The translations under genes were made by a program, and so were the position numbers. A stretch of 64,000 nucleotides of DNA from Mycolicibacterium sp. YH-1. GTDB lineage: Bacteria > Actinomycetota > Actinomycetes > Mycobacteriales > Mycobacteriaceae. How positions within the stretch are numbered: the first letter of the stretch is position 1; every line of letters starts with the position of its first letter. The DNA lies in assembly GCF_022557175.1 (NCBI RefSeq), contig NZ_CP092915.1, forward strand, positions 3,410,001 to 3,474,000, in the 5' to 3' direction. The notes below the pieces were generated by a model. The model was not told the origin of the DNA. It saw only the letters and a program-made list of their open reading frames with translations, and did not search any database. Positions 1 to 11,603 of this stretch are shown here, piece by piece.

Positions 1-1
1 G

Positions 2-1420
2 CGATTGACGTTCGGTCTTGCCGATGGTCAGGGTCACGCACTGGCTCCGACCGATCTGGCGGGCACGGCGAGGATGTCGGTGGCGCTGGTACCCGACGGT
101 GGAGCACCCATACCGCTTGTCGAGTCCGCGCCGAAGTCCGATATCGCCAAACCGGTCGACGCCAACTTGACCGACGTCAAACCCGGCCGTGCCGAGTTGC
201 GGATGTCGCTCGTCGTCACCACCGCGCCGGCCACCGGTCGCAATGGTGAACAGATCGCGCCAGGCACGATGTTGTCGCCGCAGAATGTCGAGGTCCCGAT
301 CCAGATCCTGCCCAAGGCGAATCTGCCCAGCCCCGGTAGCCGTATCGACTTCGGCACCATGGAGGGGGTCAAAGGGGCGACGGCGTTGTTACCGATCACC
401 GGGCCGGGCTGCGCGTGGATCTCGCCTTCTGAAGTAGCCAAAGTCAGAGCGACGCCCGACGGCGTCGGTGCCCCGCACTTCAGCTCCGACGCCAGCAGTC
501 CTGACAACTGCTTGAAGGTGCAGGCGGGTCAGACCGTGAACCTGCCGGTCACACTGCGTACCGACCATGACGGCCACGGCGGACTCGACGGCAGTATTGG
601 GGTACACGTCGCCGCGCTTGCCGACCCGGACGGCCCACAGGTGATTGACGTGCCGTTCTTCGCCTCCCTGACCCATCCCTTGAGCACCACGAACTTTCTG
701 GTGGTGCTGATCGCCGCCATACTGCTCGGACCGGGCATACCACTCGCCCTGCTATACGCCGCCAAGTGGCGGGTGAGCAGAATACCGCCGAAACCTCTGC
801 TGGCTGAGCGCATTCCGGTGGTAGTGAACGACGACGTTGTCCAGCGTGACGGCGCACCGTTCGCAATGGCCGATACCGACCTGGTGCACCCCGTGCCAGG
901 CCTGGCGCGCGCCACCCGCAGATTGAGCGTGCTCGGCACGACGTTGATCGCGACGACCGGCAGAAGCCCGTTCGGCAGTGGACATGTTCGCGTAGAGGCC
1001 GACGGCCGCATCAGCACTGGATCCGCGCTTCCCGGCACCGACCGCAGCGGCCTGCACGCCGTGTTGCCACTGGCGGTGCACAACAACTGGGTGGTCCTGC
1101 ACGACCCCGACGGGCCTGCCGGTGAGGCGGAGGTGCTGCTGCTGGTCGGCGGGCGCACCGACAACGCTGCCCGTCAGCGTATCTACGACGATGTGGCCCG
1201 CAGGCTTCCCGAGCTCTTGGCTGCACTGCGGCTGCGTGCGGTCGAAGCCGGTGTGGCTCCACCGCACGACCCAACGTCGCACTCATCACCGTTCGGTGAA
1301 ACGGCCGCAGCGGCAACGCAAGCCGATCCGTTCGGTGCCGATGTGACCGCGATGTCCCCAGCCATCCCGCGGTGGCGGTCCGATCCCGATCCGTTCGACC
1401 CGTTTGATGGAGGACCCTGA
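2..1420 (+). CDS. membrane-anchored Ig-like protein of tubulin/vWA/GTPase cluster (5' partial)
   Basis: The reading frame is open at the left edge, so the N-terminus lies outside the window. The visible part has an extracytoplasmic, beta-rich region of about 225 residues containing two cysteines. A hydrophobic segment (visible residues about 229-255, from TTNFLVVLIAAILLG) follows, ending in positive residues. The cytoplasmic tail of about 210 residues closes with a low-complexity DPFDPFDGGP end. Its stop overlaps the next start (TGATG), so the two genes are translationally coupled, and a GGAGGA ribosome site lies inside its 3' end. By analogy with similar actinobacterial clusters the missing N-terminus may hold a secreted vWA domain. 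That is inference; no MIDAS is visible here. It could serve as the transmembrane link between an external adhesion module and the cytoplasmic tubulin-like protein. Confidence 0.75.
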   Translation, partial: RLTFGLADGQGHALAPTDLAGTARMSVALVPDGGAPIPLVESAPKSDIAKPVDANLTDVKPGRAELRMSLVVTTAPATGRNGEQIAPGTMLSPQNVEVPIQILPKANLPSPGSRIDFGTMEGVKGATALLPITGPGCAWISPSEVAKVRATPDGVGAPHFSSDASSPDNCLKVQAGQTVNLPVTLRTDHDGHGGLDGSIGVHVAALADPDGPQVIDVPFFASLTHPLSTTNFLVVLIAAILLGPGIPLALLYAAKWRVSRIPPKPLLAERIPVVVNDDVVQRDGAPFAMADTDLVHPVPGLARATRRLSVLGTTLIATTGRSPFGSGHVRVEADGRISTGSALPGTDRSGLHAVLPLAVHNNWVVLHDPDGPAGEAEVLLLVGGRTDNAARQRIYDDVARRLPELLAALRLRAVEAGVAPPHDPTSHSSPFGETAAAATQADPFGADVTAMSPAIPRWRSDPDPFDPFDGGP

Positions 1421-4400
1421 TGCGACGATTCTTGGTAGTGGGTTGTGGTGGTTCGGGTGGCGCGACGCTGTCCTACATGATGGACCAGCTGCGCTCCGAA
1501 CTGCACACCGCAGGCGTCGACAAGCTGATTGCCGGTTGGCAATTCGTTCACATCGATGTGCCCAGCGCGGCAGATCCCGGCCCGGACGGGTTGGCGAACG
1601 TGGCCATGCAGGGTGGCACGTACGTCGGGTGTGGCCCGCGGGGGAGCAGCTACTCGATTCTCGACGGCGCGCTTTCGGCGCGGCTCGCCGCAGGAACCGC
1701 ACTGGACGCCATCGCGACGTGGGCGCCGCGCCAGCCGGATCAGGTGACCAATCCGATCTCGGCGGGTGCCGGCCAGTACCGGGCGATCGGGCGAATGATC
1801 ACGCTCAGCAAGGCCGGTGAGATCCGCAGCAAGCTGCAGTCGGCCACCGATGAGCTCTTCCGCGTGGAGACCATGTCACAGATGGCGTCGCTGGATGTCC
1901 CCGGAATGGGGCGGTTCGACCCGAACCAGCCGCCACTCGTGTTGGTGGTGTCTTCGATGGCCGGCGGTGCAGGTGCGTCGATGGCACTCGATGTGTGCCG
2001 GCTGCTGACCATGGTGTCGGGCGTCGACGTGAAGCTGATGGGCGTCTTCATGGTCACCCCGGACATCTTCGAGTCGCTGCCGCCGAGTGCGCGAATCGGG
2101 GTGCGGGCCAACGCTCTCGCGATGCTCGGTGAGATCGTCGCCTCTCAGTCCGGGGCGGCGCGGGACCACGATGTGCGCATCCTGCGCGCGCTCGGACACC
2201 AGCACGGTGACGGTGAGCCGATCCCGTTCGCCAGGGTGTTTCCGGTGGGCCGCTACGTCGGGGCCGACCGGACCCAGTTCGGCGACGGCTCGCAGTTCGC
2301 GGTCTATCGCGGGCTCGGCCGTGGCCTGGCCGGGCTGATGATGAGCGGCAGCGCCAGCGATCAGTTCGTCTCGTACGACCTGGGCAACACCGCATCCCCG
2401 GCCGGTGACAAGGATCTGTTGGGTTGGGGTATATCGGTGTGGGACCCGCTGCCGTGGGGCACCTATGGGTTCTCCTCGCTGTCGATGGGCCGTGACCGCT
2501 ACGCCGAGTACGCGGCACAGCGGCTGGCTCGCAGCAGCGCGGACAAGCTGCTGCGCGGCCACTTGCAGCCAGGCAACCCCGCCTCGGGTAACGAGCAACT
2601 CGAGTCGTTGTTGTCCAGCCAGTGGGACGCAATCTGCACCGGCCTGGGTCTGCCGTCCGCGGTGGGCGACGAGGACAGCCGGGTCACCATGCTCGGCACC
2701 TGGGTCGCCAACACCGCGTTCTCGCCAGAGGTGGTCGGCTCGACGGTGAGTGGGCTGGTGGACCGTCAGTTGCGCGGCTACCTGCCACATCCCGAGGGGA
2801 TGAGCGCCGAGCAGTGGGTGCCGATGTTCCGCCAGGCGATCGCGAACCGCCGCGACGCGCTGACGACCGCGTGCACCGAGGCCGCCTACGACATGGCGTT
2901 CGGCTGGCACCGCGACTTCGCAAGACGGCTCGAGCAGACGGTGATCGAGGCCGTCTCGACGCTGGGTCTGCCGTACACGCGGGCGCTGGTCGACCGGGTA
3001 CGCCACCACATCGACGACGTGTTGACCGGTGTCCTAACCCAGCTCGGGACGATGGGTCCTGCCGAGATCGCCGCCCTGCCCGCACACGTCGAGACGGCTC
3101 TTGGCGGGCTGAGGGGCGTGCTGTCCAACACCGATCAGGTGTTGGCGACGGCACTCGAGGGCTTCCACGCCGGCGTGCGCCGCCAGCTCTATGCCTCGGC
3201 ATCCGCGCGCATCGCCGATGTGATGCGCGTGATGGGCACCGAACTGCTGATTCCCCTGCGTCATGCGCTCGGCGAGGCGTTGGTGACGCTCGAGCAGGCA
3301 AGTGTCGAGCCGCCAACGGACATCGGCTTGGCAAGGCTGGCGACCGACCAGTACGCGGCGTGGCCTGCCGACTCGGACGAATTGGTACCTGGCCGTTTCG
3401 CCGAGGCGAACAATGAGGTGCTGCTGATCAATTCGTCCGCGTTCAAGGCCCGTTATGAATCGGATCTCGTCAAGGCGGTGGTTGGTTCGCAAGGGCTGAT
3501 ACCGTTCGCAACCTCGGTGGACAGAGCCACCACCGGTGTCATCGCCGGCCAGTGGGACACCACCGGCGGGGTGTCCGCCCCCGAGGGGCTGCTGGAGCGC
3601 ACCTCCACGTGGACGACCCGGGCATTGGGCACCGACCCCGAGACCGGCCGGACACGCGTGCCGTCGATGGCGCAGTTCGATGTGCACACCCGCCCCGCGG
3701 AGCTTCTGGCTCGGGCGCGGCAGTACGTCGACCGACCGGGTGAGTCCTTCTACGAGTTCTGCAAGGTTTCGCTACGAGATTTCGTGCAGGGCATGGGCGC
3801 ATCGGAGTCCGAACTGTCTGCCCGCAGACACGACATCGCGGGCAAGTTCGCGGAGGCGTTGTCGCTCGCGCGCCCGCTGGCCAGCGTGAACGACCAGGCC
3901 ATGCAACGGGTACATCCCGGCCAGCAGGTCGAGTACCGCTACAAGTTCTCCGACATCCCGTTCGCGGGCCAGCCCGTCGCAGCGGCACTGGAGGACGCGC
4001 TGGCATCCAATCCGCGAATCGACAGCGCCACGAAGGAGAACTTCGCCCGGTCGCTGTCGGACGAGGACGGTGTAACCCGCGTCGACATCTTCGGCTCGTA
4101 CCCGAACTACTCGCCATTGGCCTTCGACTCGGTACTCGTACCCGCCGCACAGGAGTGGGCATCGATGGCTAGCCCTGGGAGGGCGGGGTTCTGGCGCTTC
4201 CGGCGGTCCCGCCCGCTGCCTGCGTCGCTGCCGATGACCGACGCCGAACGCCGCACCATGACCGGGGGCTGGTTCGTGGGACAGATCATCGGACGCATCC
4301 AGATTCCCGCGCCTCCATATACGGAACCAGTGCGCATCTACGACGGTGATGCGGGCCGGTGGCTGAGCTTCCCCAATCCGTTGTTGACCCCGCCTTCGGA

Positions 4401-4950
4401 GTACAAGGCCAGCTATGACTGGCTACCTGCGGTGCTCGAGTCGATCCTGTTGGCGATAGCTCAGTCGCACGAACCGCCGTTGATGTCCTCGCTGCGGCCC
4501 TACCAGGTGCTGCGGGAGCTTTTCGACGCAAACTCGCAGGCTCCGGCCAGCGGAATTCTGCAGTTGTCGGCGGTACACCTGCTCCGAGACTTCGTCGTGA
4601 CGGGTTCGTCAGGGCCCGGCCTGATCTCCCGGGTGACACCGGTCGCGGCCGCATCGACACCCGCCGAACGCATCAGCGCCGCCACAACCTGGTTGGGTCG
4701 GGTTCGCGACACCGCCGCCCAATACCTGCCTGCCGGTACTCCCGGCGCCGACCCCAACGGTACGTTCACGACGATCTCTGGCCGTGCAAAGGCGACAAAC
4801 ACGCCGATCTTCCGCGATATGGCGCCCGACGTGTTCTGGGCGACCGAGAGCCTGATCAAGACGCTGCAGCGGATCTTGACTCTCGGCGACGACGACGATG
4901 AGCCGACCGCCGACGATCAGGTCGTGCTGTCCCGAGGGGTGATGTTCTAG
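1420..4950 (+). CDS. tubulin/FtsZ-like domain protein (large)
   Basis: This 1176-residue protein opens with a glycine-rich nucleotide-binding loop (VVGCGGSGG, residues 6-14), as in FtsZ/tubulin N-termini. At residues 181-187 it carries AGGAGAS after a hydrophobic strand (LVLVVSSM), the position and form of the tubulin signature loop (GGGTGSG-like). The rest is a long, largely alpha-helical extension with no recognised catalytic motif, much longer than FtsZ or tubulin. It fits the family annotated as tubulin-like in actinobacteria (Pfam Tubulin_2 type). It is coupled to the genes on both sides (1-base overlap upstream, 2-base gap downstream). It probably binds GTP and may polymerise or act as a scaffold; this is inferred from the fold only. 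The T7-loop catalytic acid could not be located with confidence. Confidence 0.8.
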   Translation: MRRFLVVGCGGSGGATLSYMMDQLRSELHTAGVDKLIAGWQFVHIDVPSAADPGPDGLANVAMQGGTYVGCGPRGSSYSILDGALSARLAAGTALDAIATWAPRQPDQVTNPISAGAGQYRAIGRMITLSKAGEIRSKLQSATDELFRVETMSQMASLDVPGMGRFDPNQPPLVLVVSSMAGGAGASMALDVCRLLTMVSGVDVKLMGVFMVTPDIFESLPPSARIGVRANALAMLGEIVASQSGAARDHDVRILRALGHQHGDGEPIPFARVFPVGRYVGADRTQFGDGSQFAVYRGLGRGLAGLMMSGSASDQFVSYDLGNTASPAGDKDLLGWGISVWDPLPWGTYGFSSLSMGRDRYAEYAAQRLARSSADKLLRGHLQPGNPASGNEQLESLLSSQWDAICTGLGLPSAVGDEDSRVTMLGTWVANTAFSPEVVGSTVSGLVDRQLRGYLPHPEGMSAEQWVPMFRQAIANRRDALTTACTEAAYDMAFGWHRDFARRLEQTVIEAVSTLGLPYTRALVDRVRHHIDDVLTGVLTQLGTMGPAEIAALPAHVETALGGLRGVLSNTDQVLATALEGFHAGVRRQLYASASARIADVMRVMGTELLIPLRHALGEALVTLEQASVEPPTDIGLARLATDQYAAWPADSDELVPGRFAEANNEVLLINSSAFKARYESDLVKAVVGSQGLIPFATSVDRATTGVIAGQWDTTGGVSAPEGLLERTSTWTTRALGTDPETGRTRVPSMAQFDVHTRPAELLARARQYVDRPGESFYEFCKVSLRDFVQGMGASESELSARRHDIAGKFAEALSLARPLASVNDQAMQRVHPGQQVEYRYKFSDIPFAGQPVAAALEDALASNPRIDSATKENFARSLSDEDGVTRVDIFGSYPNYSPLAFDSVLVPAAQEWASMASPGRAGFWRFRRSRPLPASLPMTDAERRTMTGGWFVGQIIGRIQIPAPPYTEPVRIYDGDAGRWLSFPNPLLTPPSEYKASYDWLPAVLESILLAIAQSHEPPLMSSLRPYQVLRELFDANSQAPASGILQLSAVHLLRDFVVTGSSGPGLISRVTPVAAASTPAERISAATTWLGRVRDTAAQYLPAGTPGADPNGTFTTISGRAKATNTPIFRDMAPDVFWATESLIKTLQRILTLGDDDDEPTADDQVVLSRGVMF

Positions 4951-4952
4951 CG

Positions 4953-7571
4953 ATGACTGCCTCGGCCCGTCTCCCGGCGCTGATTGTCCTGCTTGCACCT
5001 CGAGCCTCCACCGAGGAGATTCTCGCCGTGCTCGCCGACTACAGCGCGGCCGGAATGCTGACCGCGTTCGCGTGGATCGATGCAAACGAGGTGGGCCGCA
5101 GCTCGGTCCCGACAACACTGGTGCGGGACGGGACTTCTGAGGTGGTCTCGCTGCAGCGACTGCTGACAGGGAAGCGCTACGGCCGGGTCCGGCTCGCGGT
5201 GCTGGTGCCAGTGCAGGCGCATGCGATGGACCGAGTGCCACTCGCGGCCGAGCAGGCGGTGGAGCGGTTGGTGCGGAGCGCCTCGGTGGGCGCGGAGGTC
5301 ACCCTGCTGCGGCTGTTGCTGACCGGCTCGGCCGACGCCGGGTCGGCTTATGAGGATCAACCGCTGGTGCTGGAGGGGTGGCACAACCTGCTGATCGTGC
5401 CGGAGGACGCCCCGTCGCCTGAATTGGGATCGGTGATCATCGACCCGCTTGACGATCCCTTTGAGCTGGCCCGCCATGTCGCCCCGGTGATCTGCGGGAC
5501 CGCCGGGATGTGGACCGGCATCGAGGCCACTCCGTTCGACACCGTCGAGATCGTGCCCGGCCAGACCGTGCGCGCGGTGCGCGGCTTCTACCGCGAGCTC
5601 GACTCGGCCGAAGTGGAGGACCAGCTGCGCGCACAGCTGTTCGGCGGGGCCGGCCAGCTGCCGTTGCCCAACGGGGGGCCTGTACCGGTGGTCTACATCG
5701 ACGACGCGGAGCTCGCCGCGCGGAAGATGGCGCGAGCGCTGTGGACCAAACGCCGCGACGTCCTGCGCGGACCTCGGATCCCGTTGGAAAGCCCAGCTCC
5801 ACAGACGATTTCCATCTGGGAGGCGCTGAAGATGTTCTTGCGCTTTCTCGGTATGGCACTGCGCCGCGCGCCGTCGGCTTGGATGTCGTCGATGCTCGGA
5901 TCGGTGTCTTCCGCGGTCGCCGCGACCGTGCAGAGCACGATGTTCGGGCGCACCGGCTCGGCGTTCGCGGTTGTCGCCGACACTCAAGTCGCCGGCTGGG
6001 AGCAGCTCGGCAGCAGCGCTGAGGCGATGAGCACCGAGCTGCTTGGTGGGGTAGAGGACGGCCACCTGGCCCGACGCGATCTGAGTTCGCTCTGGACCGA
6101 CTTCATCAACGGCGCAATCACTTTGGCTGATGGCGGTCGCCGCGATGCCGGGCTCGAACCGGTGAGCGTCGGTGCCGGGGTAGGGGTGGTTCGCAGAAGC
6201 GCGGATGTGGTGCCCGGCGCCTCGGAGAGGTTCTCGGCGATCCCTGCGTCGCTAGCAGCGGTGATCGGAATGGACTCGGTGGAACCTGTCGACGTACTGG
6301 CCGCGACGGACCTGCGGGACCGGCTGGAACGTGCCTACGCCGACCAGGCCGCGGGAGTCGAGGCCCGCCACGCCGCTGCGGAGTTGGAGCGCTGGCAGGA
6401 GGTCGTCTCCAAGAGCTACGCATGGCAGACGGCAGCGATACTCGCCGACTTCATGGGCCGGGCTCGCGCAGAGGTGACCACGCTGGTGGAGCAGATCCGT
6501 GCCGCGTCCATCACCCAGTCGATCGACGAGCGGCTCCGGCGGCGGCAGCAAGCAATTGCCTTGTCTCTCAAGACCTTCGGCTGGGCGCTGTTCGTTGCGT
6601 TGGGGGTGATGGCGATTGCCGCCGCAGTCGGCTGGTTGAGCTGGTCGTTCACGTTGACGTGTGGCGGTGCGCTGATGGCGACATACGTGTTGGTGGCGTT
6701 GGCGATGTTCGTGGTGGCCCAGCGCGACATGTTTGCCGAGATGAACTCGCGCAAGTCTGCGCTCAGCCAGCTCGAGGCGATGCAGACCAATGTGCGTTCG
6801 GCGCTGGATGACCTGAGTCGACTGTCGATGGCATATGGGCAGCTGCTTTCGTGGTGCAGGGCTTCCGGTGCGTTCTTGCGTGCCCCCTTCGGCGCGGTCG
6901 TCCCTGCCACCGGCGCGCGCACGATGCTGATCCAGGGCCTGCCCCGCTCGACGCAGGTGGCGGTGGCGGCGCACGGCGACGATCACGGCGATACGACGCA
7001 CCGAATCCAACAGCGGCTGTACCGGCTTGGCTGGCTGACGCGCCCGTGGGAGCAGCTGCTCGCCGCGGTGGCCGCTGACGTGCGGACCGGGCAGGCCGAT
7101 GTGCTTGCCATGCCCGGGGCGGGCAGCGGTTCGGCGCTGGATCACTGGTCGCGTGCGCTCGCCAAGGGACAGGTGGCGCCCAGTGGGGCCGAAGTCCTTT
7201 GGCGTCGAGTGCAGCAGCTCTTCGATGACCCTGCCGTTGGCATCGGAGAGGGGTTGGTCGACACGGTCGTGCAAGCCGACGGCGCGCGGGTGTCGGCCGC
7301 CGAGTTCGGCGACGGGATGATCGAACGCCATACAGGACGGGGGGCTCCGTTCGACGCGTCGCTGTTCACTCACGCTGCACAAACTGCCAGCAGTTCCGCG
7401 GTGGCGATCGATGAGGGGATGGTGGTACGGCGCGGACTCGGGTACCGCGCTGCGGTGATCCAGGCCAGTGAGGGTTTGCCGTCCTACGACTTCGCCGTGT
7501 TCGCTCTGCCGCAGACGATGTCGTCTGTTGACAATGAATCGCCGCCGGGCTCTGGTGATCTGGTCTTCTAA
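4953..7571 (+). CDS. two-helix membrane protein of the tubulin-like cluster
   Basis: This is an 872-residue protein of unknown family. The N-terminal half has alternating hydrophobic strands and helices (for example ALIVLLAPRAS at the start) that may form an alpha/beta domain. A charged helical stretch around residues 470-540 could be coiled coil. It is followed by two adjacent hydrophobic segments at roughly 543-563 and 568-590 (LFVALGVMAIAAAVGWL, then MATYVLVALAMFVVA). The rest is about 280 residues, again soluble. No signal peptide is seen, so both ends are probably cytoplasmic with a membrane hairpin between. The start ATG lies 2 bases after the tubulin-like gene stop, which supports co-translation. 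It may anchor the tubulin-like protein to the membrane; no function can be assigned from motifs. Confidence 0.75.
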   Translation: MTASARLPALIVLLAPRASTEEILAVLADYSAAGMLTAFAWIDANEVGRSSVPTTLVRDGTSEVVSLQRLLTGKRYGRVRLAVLVPVQAHAMDRVPLAAEQAVERLVRSASVGAEVTLLRLLLTGSADAGSAYEDQPLVLEGWHNLLIVPEDAPSPELGSVIIDPLDDPFELARHVAPVICGTAGMWTGIEATPFDTVEIVPGQTVRAVRGFYRELDSAEVEDQLRAQLFGGAGQLPLPNGGPVPVVYIDDAELAARKMARALWTKRRDVLRGPRIPLESPAPQTISIWEALKMFLRFLGMALRRAPSAWMSSMLGSVSSAVAATVQSTMFGRTGSAFAVVADTQVAGWEQLGSSAEAMSTELLGGVEDGHLARRDLSSLWTDFINGAITLADGGRRDAGLEPVSVGAGVGVVRRSADVVPGASERFSAIPASLAAVIGMDSVEPVDVLAATDLRDRLERAYADQAAGVEARHAAAELERWQEVVSKSYAWQTAAILADFMGRARAEVTTLVEQIRAASITQSIDERLRRRQQAIALSLKTFGWALFVALGVMAIAAAVGWLSWSFTLTCGGALMATYVLVALAMFVVAQRDMFAEMNSRKSALSQLEAMQTNVRSALDDLSRLSMAYGQLLSWCRASGAFLRAPFGAVVPATGARTMLIQGLPRSTQVAVAAHGDDHGDTTHRIQQRLYRLGWLTRPWEQLLAAVAADVRTGQADVLAMPGAGSGSALDHWSRALAKGQVAPSGAEVLWRRVQQLFDDPAVGIGEGLVDTVVQADGARVSAAEFGDGMIERHTGRGAPFDASLFTHAAQTASSSAVAIDEGMVVRRGLGYRAAVIQASEGLPSYDFAVFALPQTMSSVDNESPPGSGDLVF

Positions 7572-7573
7572 CG

Positions 7574-9520
7574 ATGTCCGAGCCAAACGCGATCGAAAGC
7601 GATGACAACGATCCCCGCTTGGCGGGGCTGCTGGCATGGCGCCAACAGCTGATCGCGTCGGGCGCGGTGTCGGCACAGGCCTTCAAAGAGGCGCATGTGA
7701 GGATGGTGCTGCGGTCCGGCCGCACCGACGCCGAACAGATCCGGATGATGCTGCCCGATCCGGTGGGCGAGCACGCCGACGCGATGGCGCTAGTGCTCGC
7801 CGAGGTTCCCGGCGACGGTGCTCCGGTGCGCTCAGGCGAAATATCGTTTGCCCCAGAGGAATTCGCCCACTACACGCCCATCGGCCAGGGTGGCGCCCCA
7901 GCGCCGATCGCGCTGCGGCGCGGCGGCGACGGAGTTCTCGAACTCTCGTGGCCAACGTACGAGGCGCCGATCGTCGTGTATCGCGTGGTCAGCAGCGAGG
8001 AGGAGGCGTCGTACTCCCCGGATCGGGCACACATGGTGGCCGCCACCATCTCAGCGGAGGCCGTGGACGAACGCGAGGCAGCCGCCGCCGTGCGTCACTA
8101 CCAGGTATGGGTCAACGCGGGCACCACGCGCGAGGAGGCCCTTGCTGCACAACCACGTCTGCACGCGACTGGACTGGTGGTGGCTGGAGTGTGCGGGATG
8201 GCGGTGCGGGATGACTTCGGTCGCGTGATCGGGCAGTGGACTGTCTTTCCTGGCGTACGGACGGTGCACGTCGAACGAATCCCGTTCGACGAGTCCGCCC
8301 TGGGTGGACCGCACTATCGCATTCTGGCGGGTGAGGAGAACCTCGGGGGATTCGTCGACTCCGAAGCCGAAGGCGGGCGCCGGTACATATATCGGGCCCG
8401 TTGCGAGGTGATCGTCGACGGAGTCGGCCGCCTCTCGGAGGCCACCGAGGCAGAGGTCGCCGTCACGACTCTGCTCATCCCTGTTGCCGACCTCTCGCTG
8501 ACCGTGCGTGCCAGCGACCCGGTAACAGTCGACCTGGCGTGGACGCCACCACCCGGAGGACGGGTCGCGATATTCCGCACCGCAGTCGGCCCCCGAGCGG
8601 GCGCGGAAGCAGACGAGATGCCCGAGACGGCGATGGAGCAGGCTGGCCTGCATCCCGAACACCGGCTGACGCACCCGGTCTCACAGGAAGTGGATGCGCA
8701 CGCTCGCCCGCGGGCGGTGATAACCGGCGTGCCGTGGCCGCACGACTGGAGCCGCGCCTACTTCACCCCGGTGACGTTGGTGGGCGGGCGGGCCAGACTC
8801 GGCAAGACGGCGTCGATTGTGCGAACCGCGCCGATCCGCGACGTCGCGCTCATCGAGTACTGCAACAAGCAGGTGCTGACATTCGGATGGCCGGATGGCG
8901 CGGCGGCCGTCATCGTCCATCTGGCAGGTAAGGCGCACGATCCTCGCACCGGGCTGAGCGGTCGCTCCTACGAGATCACGCTGGAGGACTACGAGCGATA
9001 CGGCGGCATGCAGTTCACCGGTGAGTTGCCTCCGGGCGGCTGCTCGCTGCACCTCGCCGCTGTCGCCTTCTCGGCGGGTCGGCGTGTCCTCGGAGATGTC
9101 ACCAGCATCATCTACGACGGACTGCTACGCCTGTGGTATTCGGTGCAGATCGGACGGGACTCGGCAGGTTGGCCGATGACCGCTGCCCTGGCGGTGCGGG
9201 CCGAAGTGGACGTCAGGGGTTCACCGCCGTTCGTGCTCGTGCACAATCCTGACCGGATTCCACTGAGCGTCAACGATGGTCAGCCAGTCGATGTTGCCCC
9301 GGTGAACGAGCGGGGAGAGTACGTCTCACCGCCATCGAAGGAGATCCGATACTCGTCGATAACCGCGTACGGCTGCGGCGAACTGTGGGTGGGTGATGTC
9401 CGTTACCGCACGGGATGGATCCGGCTATTCGCCAATCTCGGCGACCCGAAGCGGCTGCGCCGGCTGGCGTTGCTCGATCCGCCGGTGTCGACGTTGCGAC
9501 TGACAGGATCGCCGATCTGA
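7574..9520 (+). CDS. FN3-like repeat protein of the tubulin-like cluster
   Basis: This is a 648-residue protein without signal peptide or membrane helix. The first 75 residues are helical and acidic. After that, beta-sandwich units recur with the fibronectin type III-like rhythm (LELSW...IVVYRV near residues 125-140, VTVDLAWTPPPGGRVAIFR near 315-335, LTFGWPDGAAAVIVHLAG near 435-455). These units suggest several tandem FN3-like domains used for protein binding. The start ATG follows the previous stop by 2 bases, and the gene ends in a TGATG overlap with the next start. In a cytoplasmic protein, FN3-like units next to vWA and tubulin-like proteins suggest a scaffold role. I do not recognise a catalytic motif. 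Confidence 0.75.
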   Translation: MSEPNAIESDDNDPRLAGLLAWRQQLIASGAVSAQAFKEAHVRMVLRSGRTDAEQIRMMLPDPVGEHADAMALVLAEVPGDGAPVRSGEISFAPEEFAHYTPIGQGGAPAPIALRRGGDGVLELSWPTYEAPIVVYRVVSSEEEASYSPDRAHMVAATISAEAVDEREAAAAVRHYQVWVNAGTTREEALAAQPRLHATGLVVAGVCGMAVRDDFGRVIGQWTVFPGVRTVHVERIPFDESALGGPHYRILAGEENLGGFVDSEAEGGRRYIYRARCEVIVDGVGRLSEATEAEVAVTTLLIPVADLSLTVRASDPVTVDLAWTPPPGGRVAIFRTAVGPRAGAEADEMPETAMEQAGLHPEHRLTHPVSQEVDAHARPRAVITGVPWPHDWSRAYFTPVTLVGGRARLGKTASIVRTAPIRDVALIEYCNKQVLTFGWPDGAAAVIVHLAGKAHDPRTGLSGRSYEITLEDYERYGGMQFTGELPPGGCSLHLAAVAFSAGRRVLGDVTSIIYDGLLRLWYSVQIGRDSAGWPMTAALAVRAEVDVRGSPPFVLVHNPDRIPLSVNDGQPVDVAPVNERGEYVSPPSKEIRYSSITAYGCGELWVGDVRYRTGWIRLFANLGDPKRLRRLALLDPPVSTLRLTGSPI

Positions 9521-10449
9521 TGCCGATCTATGTGTTGGGCCCCCGCAACCGCTCCGTGGAGATTCCGGACCAGGCGCTGACAGTGTCGGTCAGCGGCTCT
9601 GTTCGGGGCGCCTCGCTGGTGATACGCGCGAGCGACGACCAGGTGACGATGCAACCCAATTCGCACCTGGCTGTGTTGCCGCGGGTGAGCGGACCGGTAT
9701 CGGTCACCGTCGTCCCCGCCGCAGGGGCAACCCTCTTCGCGCCGGGAACCCAAGTCAGCCTCGCCATCGGACACGACACCGCCACCGACCTCGACCCGGT
9801 GCAGGTGCTATTCGATCCTGTTGATGTGACCGGCGATTCGGCCGTGGAGCTGGCCAGGCTCATCCCGCACGGTGCTGGGGTCCTGGTCTCGGCCGCAGCG
9901 GGCGTGGACACCCCGATGAGTCCGTTGGGGTCAGCGGCACGCACGTCGGCGCGGAGAGTCCTTGACGGCAAGCGCCGCGCGGCTCGCGGCCCTGTGCTGG
10001 TGGCGCTGGACACGTCGGCCTCGATGCTGGCCACGTTCGCAGGCGGCGGGGCCGCTGCTGCCGTCGATGTCATCGTCGGTGTCGCCGCCGCCGTCGGGAT
10101 CAACGACGTATCGGCGATATTCGTCGGTGCCGAACCCGTCCCGGTGATGTGTGGCACGGCCGCCCAGCTAGCCGCGGCGGTCAGCCATGCCACACCGCGA
10201 TGGAGCGCAGGCGCGCGCTGGTCGCTCCTGCCACACACCAGCGGCCGCATTGTTGCGTGCACCGACTTTCCGACCCGAATCACAGTGCAGCGGTGCGTCG
10301 TTATGGCACTCACCGAGAGCCCACTACTCGACAAACGCTGCGTACGCATGTCACCCCCGCCCCCCGGGCTGCAGAGTGACATCGAGCTGCTCGCGAACTC
10401 GTCCGAGCTGGATAGGATCACATCGTCACTGGTGCGTGCGTTGCGATGA
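9520..10449 (+). CDS. vWA-domain protein with intact MIDAS motif
   Basis: The start is set at the ATG overlapping the upstream stop (TGATG), giving 309 residues. A longer frame reaching back to 9415 would overlap the previous gene by more than 100 bases. Residues 1-150 are beta-rich and may form a sandwich domain. Residues 158-170 read VLVALDTSASML, a classic metal-ion-dependent adhesion site: D164, S166 and S168 form DxSxS. A later strand with an acidic residue (GRIVACTDFP, about residues 242-251) is a candidate for another MIDAS ligand. No signal peptide is seen, so it is cytoplasmic. vWA domains with a MIDAS bind partner proteins through a divalent metal. The gene overlaps the GTPase gene by 4 bases (ATGA), which argues for a joint complex. 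Confidence 0.8.
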   Translation: MPIYVLGPRNRSVEIPDQALTVSVSGSVRGASLVIRASDDQVTMQPNSHLAVLPRVSGPVSVTVVPAAGATLFAPGTQVSLAIGHDTATDLDPVQVLFDPVDVTGDSAVELARLIPHGAGVLVSAAAGVDTPMSPLGSAARTSARRVLDGKRRAARGPVLVALDTSASMLATFAGGGAAAAVDVIVGVAAAVGINDVSAIFVGAEPVPVMCGTAAQLAAAVSHATPRWSAGARWSLLPHTSGRIVACTDFPTRITVQRCVVMALTESPLLDKRCVRMSPPPPGLQSDIELLANSSELDRITSSLVRALR

Positions 10450-11603
10450 ACAAGTGCCCGCGGTGCTTCTCCGATTTGCACGACGACCAGTACGCGTGGT
10501 CGGTGTCGCCGCTCGCCGGCGGGCAACGGTACATCGATCCAGTGGCCTCCGCATTCGCCGGCGCCGACTCTGAGTCCGGACCGATCTACAGCGTGACCAG
10601 ACCCCCGGGCTTCCGCGGCCCGCTGCTGTCGGTCTCCGATGCCGAGGCGGGATTGGCGGCACCAGTGGTGGAGATTTGTCCGGTATGCCACTTCGTACTG
10701 CCCGACGGGTGGCGACAAGGCCATGCCATCTGCATCGCCATGGCCGGAACCCCGTCCACCGGCAAGAGCACCTACCTGGCGGTGTTGATCAGGCAGATGC
10801 AGATGCTGTGCGAAGGCCTCGGTGTCTCGATGGAGCCCGCCACCCGGGTCAGTGCCGACGCGTATGCGTTGAACTACGAGCAGCCGCTCTACGACCTGCG
10901 CGGCATGGTTCCGCCGACGCCGACGTTCCAGATCCAGGCACCCAACCAGCGCCTTCCATTGATATTCAGCTTTGGTATCCGCGATGGGGTACGACGATTT
11001 CTGGTCATCCGTGACATCGCCGGTGAGGACCTGGAGTCCGGTGACATGCAGTCACCGCAGTTCCGGTACTTCGCCAACGCCGACGCCGTGTTCTTCATGT
11101 TCGATCCGATACGGGTCAAGGACATTCGCGATCAGCTGCAGGATCTGCTGCCCGCCCAGTCCTACAGCGCAGGAGACCCCCGGGCGCTGCTGAGCAACGT
11201 ACTGCTCGCCATCGGTGCGGGCCGGCCGAGGCTCGCGGTCGTCCTCTCGAAGTTCGACGCATTGCGAGCGCTCGGTGAGGTGGAGGGATCGGAGTGGAGC
11301 CAGATCATGTCGAATGCCGGCGCCGCGTACCTGCGAGAAAACTCGGCGGCCACCCACTACGACGACAACGACGGAGAGCTGTTGCACGAGGAGGTGCGCA
11401 GCCTGCTACTCCGACTGCATGCGAGGTCGATCGTCACCGCGATCGAAAGCCATTCCGCTGCGATGCAATTGACGTACCGCTACTTTGTCGTCTCGGCGCT
11501 GGGGCAGCCGCACGCGGGTGACCGGGTGAGTTCTCGGGGTATCACGCCCTTTCGCTGTACCGATCCGCTGCGATGGATAACGTCATCGGTCGGCGTGTTG
11601 TAG
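10446..11603 (+). CDS. zinc-ribbon P-loop GTPase (TRAFAC/double-GTPase-like)
   Basis: This 385-residue protein begins with a split zinc ribbon: CPRC at residues 4-7 and CPVC about 75 residues later. A P-loop follows at residues 101-109 (GTPSTGKST). Switch/Walker B is at D190-I-A-G193 (DxxG form). A G4-like SKFD element is preceded by a hydrophobic strand (LAVVLSKFDALR), which suggests guanine rather than adenine specificity. The size and zinc ribbon resemble the GTPases paired with vWA proteins in bacterial conflict-type systems described by comparative genomics; that relation is inferred. It is the last gene of the coupled cluster and overlaps the vWA gene by ATGA. It probably acts as the nucleotide-controlled switch of the system. 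Confidence 0.82.
   Translation: MNKCPRCFSDLHDDQYAWSVSPLAGGQRYIDPVASAFAGADSESGPIYSVTRPPGFRGPLLSVSDAEAGLAAPVVEICPVCHFVLPDGWRQGHAICIAMAGTPSTGKSTYLAVLIRQMQMLCEGLGVSMEPATRVSADAYALNYEQPLYDLRGMVPPTPTFQIQAPNQRLPLIFSFGIRDGVRRFLVIRDIAGEDLESGDMQSPQFRYFANADAVFFMFDPIRVKDIRDQLQDLLPAQSYSAGDPRALLSNVLLAIGAGRPRLAVVLSKFDALRALGEVEGSEWSQIMSNAGAAYLRENSAATHYDDNDGELLHEEVRSLLLRLHARSIVTAIESHSAAMQLTYRYFVVSALGQPHAGDRVSSRGITPFRCTDPLRWITSSVGVL

Follow-up and report, generated by a model that had tools for sequence, protein, structure and literature searches.

An actinobacterial tubulin-theme DO-GTPase operon without GAP1 and with an altered GTPase P-loop in Mycolicibacterium sp. YH-1

The stretch of DNA considered here, called the window throughout, comprises 64,000 nucleotides of the 7.27 Mb genome of Mycolicibacterium sp. 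YH-1 (positions 3,410,001 to 3,474,000 of contig NZ_CP092915.1; G000:C1:3410001-3474000 in our files). From position 1 onwards it holds the larger part of an operon that is almost certainly an actinobacterial tubulin-theme DO-GTPase system, but one that has lost its GAP1 protein and carries a changed GTPase. Seven core genes, named S9, VWA1, TUB, TM2, FN3, VWA2 and GTP, lie on one strand; the operon starts about 3.2 kb upstream of the window. A preliminary description, made from the window alone, had seen six coupled genes, and all six are there, overlapping or separated by no more than two bases: VWA1 and TUB meet at TGATG (1418-1422), VWA2 and GTP at ATGA (10446-10449), and at TUB/TM2 (4948-4955) as well as at TM2/FN3 (7569-7576) a stop codon is followed by two bases and ATG. 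Extension upstream of position 1, which had been advised, yields the rest of VWA1 and, on the same strand, S9, which is small and has three hydrophobic segments, as well as S8 and S10, two membrane proteins resembling what we take to be the DUF4190 family. The gaps among the S8, S9, S10 and VWA1 genes amount to 5, 1 and 40 bases.

The preliminary description knew of no role for such a set in a mycobacterium. The set is not unknown, however, since its make-up is that of the tubulin theme of the GAP1-N2 DO-GTPase systems together with an FtsZl1 tubulin, and this kind of system has been described before (PMC7159879; PMC2875224; both papers are cited here from the parts of their text available to us). 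Kaur et al. 2020 (PMC7159879) present the tubulin theme as an actinobacterial operon with one tubulin gene that has a further helical part, a zinc-ribbon DO-GTPase, an FN3-like protein and a membrane-bound vWA protein with a beta-rich region, all of which recur here. The tubulin family was called FtsZl1 by Makarova and Koonin 2010 (PMC2875224); it shares with TUB the T1 and T4 loops, the long helical part and the vWA and GTPase neighbours. There are differences, too. No OmpA-family or kinase gene is found among the present core genes. The system of Kaur et al. has an HRDC domain fused to FNIII, whereas no Pfam HRDC matched in 30 relatives of FN3, a diverged HRDC still being possible. Neither paper mentions TM2, S9 or VWA2 in the text available to us, although figures or supplements may show them. 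The differences of most consequence, the missing GAP1 and the changed P-loop, are new with respect to these surveys, and the structural and motif results reported below go beyond what we saw of both. No experiment on such a system turned up in the literature, as searched by titles and abstract openings and with most subscription journals outside the search.

What the relatives encode between FN3 and VWA2 is GAP1, its GAP1-N2 and GAP1-M domains being recognised by Pfam in seven loci. Both of these neighbours were found in 71 loci: 66 have a GAP1 extending well past the M domain, four have one reduced to N2-M (L037, L038, L052 and the divergent L096; own profile), and the window is the only one without any, its FN3 joining VWA2 directly at TGATG. 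Searches of the genome with two Pfam profiles and with a mycobacterial GAP1 as query retrieved no GAP1, and our own GAP1 profile had no match in any frame of the extended locus. As controls, both Pfam profiles match Corynebacterium glutamicum and that of GAP1-N2 also 33 relatives; the mycobacterial query had no control of its own. A GAP1 hidden in TM2 or elsewhere was considered and is ruled out by the Pfam, own-profile and whole-genome searches. GAP1-N2 is found in 33 of the 36 genomes of the genus sample that carry TUB; the exceptions are the window's genome (completeness 100%) and two that are incomplete (64% and 79%). Counting near-complete genomes, the ratio is 33 of 34, with the window's as sole exception. 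We are practically sure that GAP1 is truly lost. Its full loss and its shortening look like independent events, because the window's clade stands apart from L037, L038 and L052 in the tubulin tree; the latter three, all mycobacterial loci, retain the common GAR form of the GTPase P-loop.

The GTPase was correctly recognised as a zinc-ribbon protein. It matches DO-GTPase2 (PF19993) with 33.6 bits (cut-off 27, E 4.2e-8; 32.8 bits in the genome search) and is the single DO-GTPase2 encoded in the genome. Across 22 sequences D190, G193 and E194 of its Walker B motif RDIAGED and G106 and K107 of the P-loop are invariant, as is C4 of the zinc ribbon (C4-x2-C7 and C78-x2-C81), the other cysteines being nearly so. 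N-terminal zinc ribbons occur in 60% of the DO-GTPase members (Kaur et al. 2020, PMC7159879). No solved structure matched the protein by sequence.

What sets this GTPase apart are its deviations. If a position is called conserved when the same residue occupies it in at least 93% of the other sequences (45 rows, each covering at least 85% of the length of the window's protein), the window's GTPase deviates at 7 of 78 conserved positions, whereas in 23 mycobacterial loci the mean is 0.39 and the highest count 3. The corresponding numbers for S9, VWA1, TUB, TM2, FN3 and VWA2 are 0, 0, 1, 2, 1 and 1; none exceeds the mycobacterial maximum, which TM2 and VWA2 equal. Two of the seven changes turn the P-loop GARATGK into GTPSTGK. 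GAR is kept in 43 of the 45 aligned GTPases. Among the best 120 of 264 homologues of the protein (for TUB, the best 120 of 755 were taken), 106 have GAR, 13 have GTP or GAP and one has GGR, and the 13 include the ten most similar sequences, at 68-99% identity. The top one, at 99%, is the window's own cluster; the GTPATGK-type enzymes are 77-88% and the GAPGTGK-type ones 68-70% identical to the window's. As the nearest homologues share the GTP/GAP type of P-loop, the change was inherited by the clade.

Of course, such a locus might simply be decaying, GAP1 having been lost by accident and the remaining genes being on their way out. That one of 34 near-complete tubulin-positive genomes lacks GAP1-N2, and that the GTPase is altered at otherwise conserved sites, could be read in this way. 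Every frame is open, however, the junctions are coupled, and at conserved positions the six other proteins deviate no more than their relatives do. The P-loop change, moreover, is common to a clade with the identities just mentioned, which implies that it is old and that the gene has stayed open since. Decay is very improbable. We rather believe that the GTPase probably changed because GAP1 went. A direct interaction between the two had been supposed from their co-occurrence (Kaur et al. 2020, PMC7159879); the residues altered here suggest that GAP1 acts at or near the P-loop, probably via its N2-M part.

The operon itself is a coherent unit. A scan of named genomes found 102 relatives, of which the best 80 loci were kept and four more distant ones added; the 80 come from actinobacteria, among them Mycobacterium, Rhodococcus, Gordonia, Williamsia, Nocardia, Propionibacteriaceae, Arthrobacter, Brevibacterium and Corynebacterium. 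In all 63 fetched loci that hold the seven core genes, the order is identical and on one strand, so the arrangement is not due to chance; a lack of conserved gene order had been named as a reason to abandon the idea of a system. TM2 accompanies TUB in 83 of the 84 loci. Occurrence is scattered: TUB (E ≤1e-50) is found in 36 of 396 sampled genomes of the genus, the window's included, and in a sample of the class in 6 of 296, two of them within the genus. Taken together, fixed order and scattered occurrence make the system coherent and patchy. A survey count of 14 in 118 becomes 12 when two weak partial matches (E 4.6e-4 and 6.6e-4) are dropped; L103 was left out of alignment A3 because stop codons fell within the coordinates used, and loci cut by contig ends were left out where the gene was missing. 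A quick tree of the tubulins mostly tracks bacterial families and places the window's TUB inside the Mycobacteriaceae. In L086 (Mycolicibacterium sp. 018/SC-01/001) the tubulin groups with those of Gordonia/Nocardiaceae and TerD genes flank the operon, which makes horizontal transfer likely for this locus. The tubulin gene also resides on two Rhodococcus megaplasmids, 1.1 and 1.4 Mb in size (NZ_CP110470.1 and NZ_CP113952.1), and in L084 (Mycobacterium talmoniae, G583:C821) it is split over two frames.

TUB, described at the outset as tubulin-like, matches Tubulin_2 (PF13809) with 163.1 bits (curated cut-off 27, E 1.4e-47). Its confident structure model comprises both tubulin domains with a large helical insertion between them, so that the product of 1420-4950, for which a missing tubulin fold would have been fatal to the idea, has that fold in the model. 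The C-terminal tubulin domain, too, appears to be present; it lies beyond the insertion and, according to the text available of PMC2875224, went undetected in FtsZl1. Compared with CetZ, TubZ and FtsZ, to whose structures it is 12-15% identical in three alignments, TUB is about three times longer and differs by the large insertion and by its operon partners. Solved structures that matched TUB by sequence were three weak chains, all unrelated. Does such a protein polymerise? FtsZ has a linker followed by a conserved C-terminal peptide. TUB keeps the same arrangement, its T1 and T4 loops do not vary across 39 sequences, and both tubulin domains appear to be there; these features speak for a filament rather than for a membrane-bound GTP sensor that is monomeric or capped. 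The latter, in turn, would agree with the large insertion inside the fold, with the T7 loop, which was not identified in TUB, and with the option “do not form filaments”, one of three considered in PMC2875224. We regard a non-filamentous TUB as unlikely and give a membrane-linked polymer about an even chance.

The operon also carries short peptide motifs. At their C-termini TUB and TM2 look alike, with [IV]P[DE]GGxF-COOH in the former and P..G..F-COOH in the latter, and both end in F in 57 of 81 loci. Where they diverge, they seem to do so in pairs, for example VMPGEGDF and VIPGEGEF in L096, LDEVF and VPEVF in L098, and L at both ends in L099. In 24 loci less than 60% identical in TUB, the ungapped similarity of the true TUB-TM2 pairs exceeded that of all 5000 permutations (z 4.9), and with gaps all but 2 of 5000 stayed below it. 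Other pairs gave lesser signals, VWA1-TUB being reached by 110 and FN3-VWA2 by 190 of 5000 ungapped permutations and TM2-FN3 by 36 gapped ones. As fifteen pairs were tested and none of the other 14 is as strong, we take only TUB-TM2 as real; shared ancestry is controlled in these tests only via the other pairs, and the pairs with the GTPase comprise 7 loci.

The second motif is DPF, NPF or DPW, found in the N-terminal tails of S9, S8 and S10 and the C-terminal tail of VWA1. Per 1000 residues, DP[FW] reaches 9.2 in the S9 tails and 13.1 in the VWA1 tails. The background in the window's genome is 0.10 in 389 reading frames, which were chosen by length without a gene finder, and 0.07 in 234 disordered 60-residue stretches. 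A background of membrane-protein tails is small (9 tails, none with the motif). S8 and S10 carry DP[FW] in 34 of 56 frames, with 52 motifs versus 1.3 expected by shuffling. The remainder of VWA1 has no DP[FW], and in TUB it is depleted. Among divergent representatives the signal weakens but stays high, [DN]P[FW] occurring at 7.5 (S9) and 14.2 (VWA1) per 1000 versus a background of 0.36; DP[FW] itself is present in 4 of 20 S9 and 9 of 24 VWA1 proteins, and L098 has PW in place of PF in both tails. The tails of S9 and VWA1 are predicted to face the cytosol, on the basis of hydropathy and the positive-inside rule. Such motifs resemble those of eukaryotic endocytic adaptors, which we take as convergence. 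As to the DUF4190-like genes, two are located just before the window (L002:10764-12156), with DPF near the N-terminus; in mycobacterial relatives similar genes stand at one or both ends of the operon. The genome also encodes, at another site, a more remote paralogue (L158), which is without DPF.

Table 1. Features of the operon in the window (aa, amino acids; TM, transmembrane).
Feature	Position	Strand	Remark
VWA1, 3' part of 907-aa membrane vWA protein	1..1420	+	TM segment 661-689 and C-terminal tail
DPF motifs, VWA1 residues 877, 898, 901	1325..1405	+	predicted cytosolic tail
TUB, 1176-aa tubulin-like protein (FtsZl1 / Tubulin_2)	1420..4950	+	
TUB T1 loop GCGGSGG, residues 8-14	1441..1461	+	G8, G10, G11, S12, G13 invariant, n=39
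TUB T4 loop SMAGGAGAS, residues 179-187	1954..1980	+	S179, A181, G182, G183, G185, A186 invariant, n=39
Mostly helical insertion between tubulin domains, residues ~385-720	2572..3579	+	limits from secondary structure, approximate
TUB C-terminal peptide after low-confidence linker	4915..4947	+	kept in relatives as [IV]P[DE]GGxF
TM2, 872-aa two-helix membrane protein, long coiled-coil-like helices	4953..7571	+	
TM2 hydrophobic segments 534-553 and 566-591	6552..6725	+	hydropathy
FN3-like repeat protein, 648 aa	7574..9520	+	fn3 E 0.1, sub-threshold
FN3/VWA2 junction TGATG	9518..9522	+	site of full GAP1 in 66/71 loci, shortened GAP1 in 4
VWA2, 309-aa vWA-like protein	9520..10449	+	start moved from 9415
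VWA2 MIDAS-like DTSAS	10009..10023	+	S203 invariant, D199 and S201 nearly invariant, n=29
Zinc-ribbon DO-GTPase, 385 aa	10446..11603	+	
GTPase P-loop GTPSTGKS replacing GARATGKS	10746..10769	+	

Of the remaining proteins, the first had been described as a transmembrane Ig-like protein. It is indeed a membrane protein, but only the 3' end of vWA-type VWA1 had been in view; the full-length gene starts about 1.3 kb before position 1, and its product combines a vWA-like region bearing DxSxS with a signal-like helix at the N-terminus and a transmembrane segment. The VWA_2 match is sub-threshold in the window (20.9 bits, cut-off 27) and over the cut-off in the relative L046 (30.2 bits). TM2 has the two membrane helices ascribed to it, according to hydropathy; its N-terminal domain is weakly Ras-like, no Pfam family matches it over the cut-off, and relatives of it are absent from the phage and viral collections searched. 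The HMM searches that had been advised put Tubulin_2 and DO-GTPase2 over their cut-offs and leave fn3 sub-threshold; in the FN3 family two of 30 members have sub-threshold fn3 matches. In L147 (G525) the FN3 gene is spread over three overlapping frames and looks broken or misassembled. VWA2 had rightly been seen as a vWA-like protein with DxSxS. Its start was placed too far upstream: M36 of the longer frame aligns with the conserved start of the family, and the corrected position is the most likely one. Ten of 29 family members, not including the window's, are weakly TerF-like (best E 0.003).

Hints at the function come from neighbours. TerD is encoded upstream of S9 in 14 of 84 relatives scanned, or in 13 of those 61 for which 4 kb or more of upstream sequence is available. 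Of 121 genomes sampled from the window's family, 58 encode TerD, with up to 16 matches each, from which a chance neighbour is estimated at about 1% per locus; the loci are not independent of each other, because all 14 fall in about two clades. The Ter system (TerD, TerC, TelA) is a neighbour of the operon in some relatives, and the weak TerF-likeness of VWA2 is a further resemblance to it. In Pseudarthrobacter (L077:465-5826) TerD, TelA and TerC-family genes lie upstream of the operon on the opposite strand. A role in stress or defence is a tentative prediction, to which we give slightly less than an even chance.

Kaur et al. propose for such systems in general that they defend against phages, and the tubulin would then be the effector. 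The patchy spread, the tight operon and the TerD neighbours in relatives are consistent with this idea, and PMC8123226, in the part available to us, implicates ter operons in the inhibition of phages. PADLOC, however, offers no more than one sub-threshold match for the six window proteins (LeoBC, E 0.032), and the tubulin tree mostly follows bacterial families. We consider a dedicated anti-phage system unlikely.

A quite different suggestion is a housekeeping scaffold of the envelope or the pole, in which the tubulin/GTPase complex would set the place of a secretion or cell-wall machine. SaeC of M. smegmatis is reportedly required for polar ESX-1 assembly. It is listed as “Putative ESX-1 scaffolding and assembly protein SaeC” (PMC8525676, seen in part), and among the best 120 of 264 GTPase homologues five mycobacterial ones (P0158, P0179, P0188, P0222 and P0241) are named “ESX-1 scaffolding and assembly p...”. 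These names could be a functional link between DO-GTPase and ESX-1 assembly. Yet they are automatic annotation only, and a system present in just 36 of 396 genomes of the genus is not a general housekeeping part. Such a scaffold appears rather unlikely to us.

We thus return to the operon as a GAP1-less derivative of the tubulin-theme DO-GTPase system. From the computed gene content and order, absence of GAP1, residue changes, modelled fold and motif statistics, we infer contacts, polymerisation and a function that may be pictured as follows. The extracellular vWA-like domain of VWA1, beside S9 and the DUF4190-like proteins, would sense an event at the envelope. The probably cytosolic tails rich in DPF, NPF and DPW would then bring the FN3 repeats, VWA2 and the coiled-coil TM2 to the site. 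There, the zinc-ribbon GTPase might serve as a timer that permits or ends assembly of TUB on the membrane, TUB and TM2 offering the same C-terminal peptide to one shared receptor, and under stress from chemicals or phages the assembly would remodel or guard the membrane. GAP1 would act on the GTPase in most relatives; here, the enzyme with the changed P-loop would work without it. On the whole, we hold a GAP1-less derivative working in some such manner to be reasonably probable. Its most specific form, a tubulin machine with two peptide codes (from membrane tails to coat, and from the TUB/TM2 peptide to one receptor) and a GAP1-independent switch via the inherited P-loop change, is doubtful.

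Several observations weigh against this picture. The absence of GAP1 is seen in one genome, and the system as such is patchy. The T7 catalytic loop of TUB did not show up when the alignment was inspected by eye, relatives of TUB are absent from the phage and viral collections searched, and the window's VWA2 has no Pfam match. The tail motif is absent or replaced in the divergent loci L064, L096 and L099-L101, and neither peptide code has a known receptor. The defence models gave no convincing match, the 14 TerD loci represent about two clades, and the window's genome has no TerD at all.

What can be learned from a single deviating operon? Both papers found on such systems are computer surveys, and the copy without GAP1 is a natural experiment on how these systems work. 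The loss of the regulator together with a matching change confined to the GTPase is evidence from evolution for an action of GAP1 on this enzyme, and the P-loop arginine is suggested as the site of its action. A full tubulin fold in FtsZl1 would revive the filament option, on which its discoverers had not decided in 2010. For the architecture of the machine, the tails with their motifs and the C-terminal peptides common to TUB and TM2 offer concrete candidate contacts. If the SaeC name is borne out, it would tie the system to ESX secretion.

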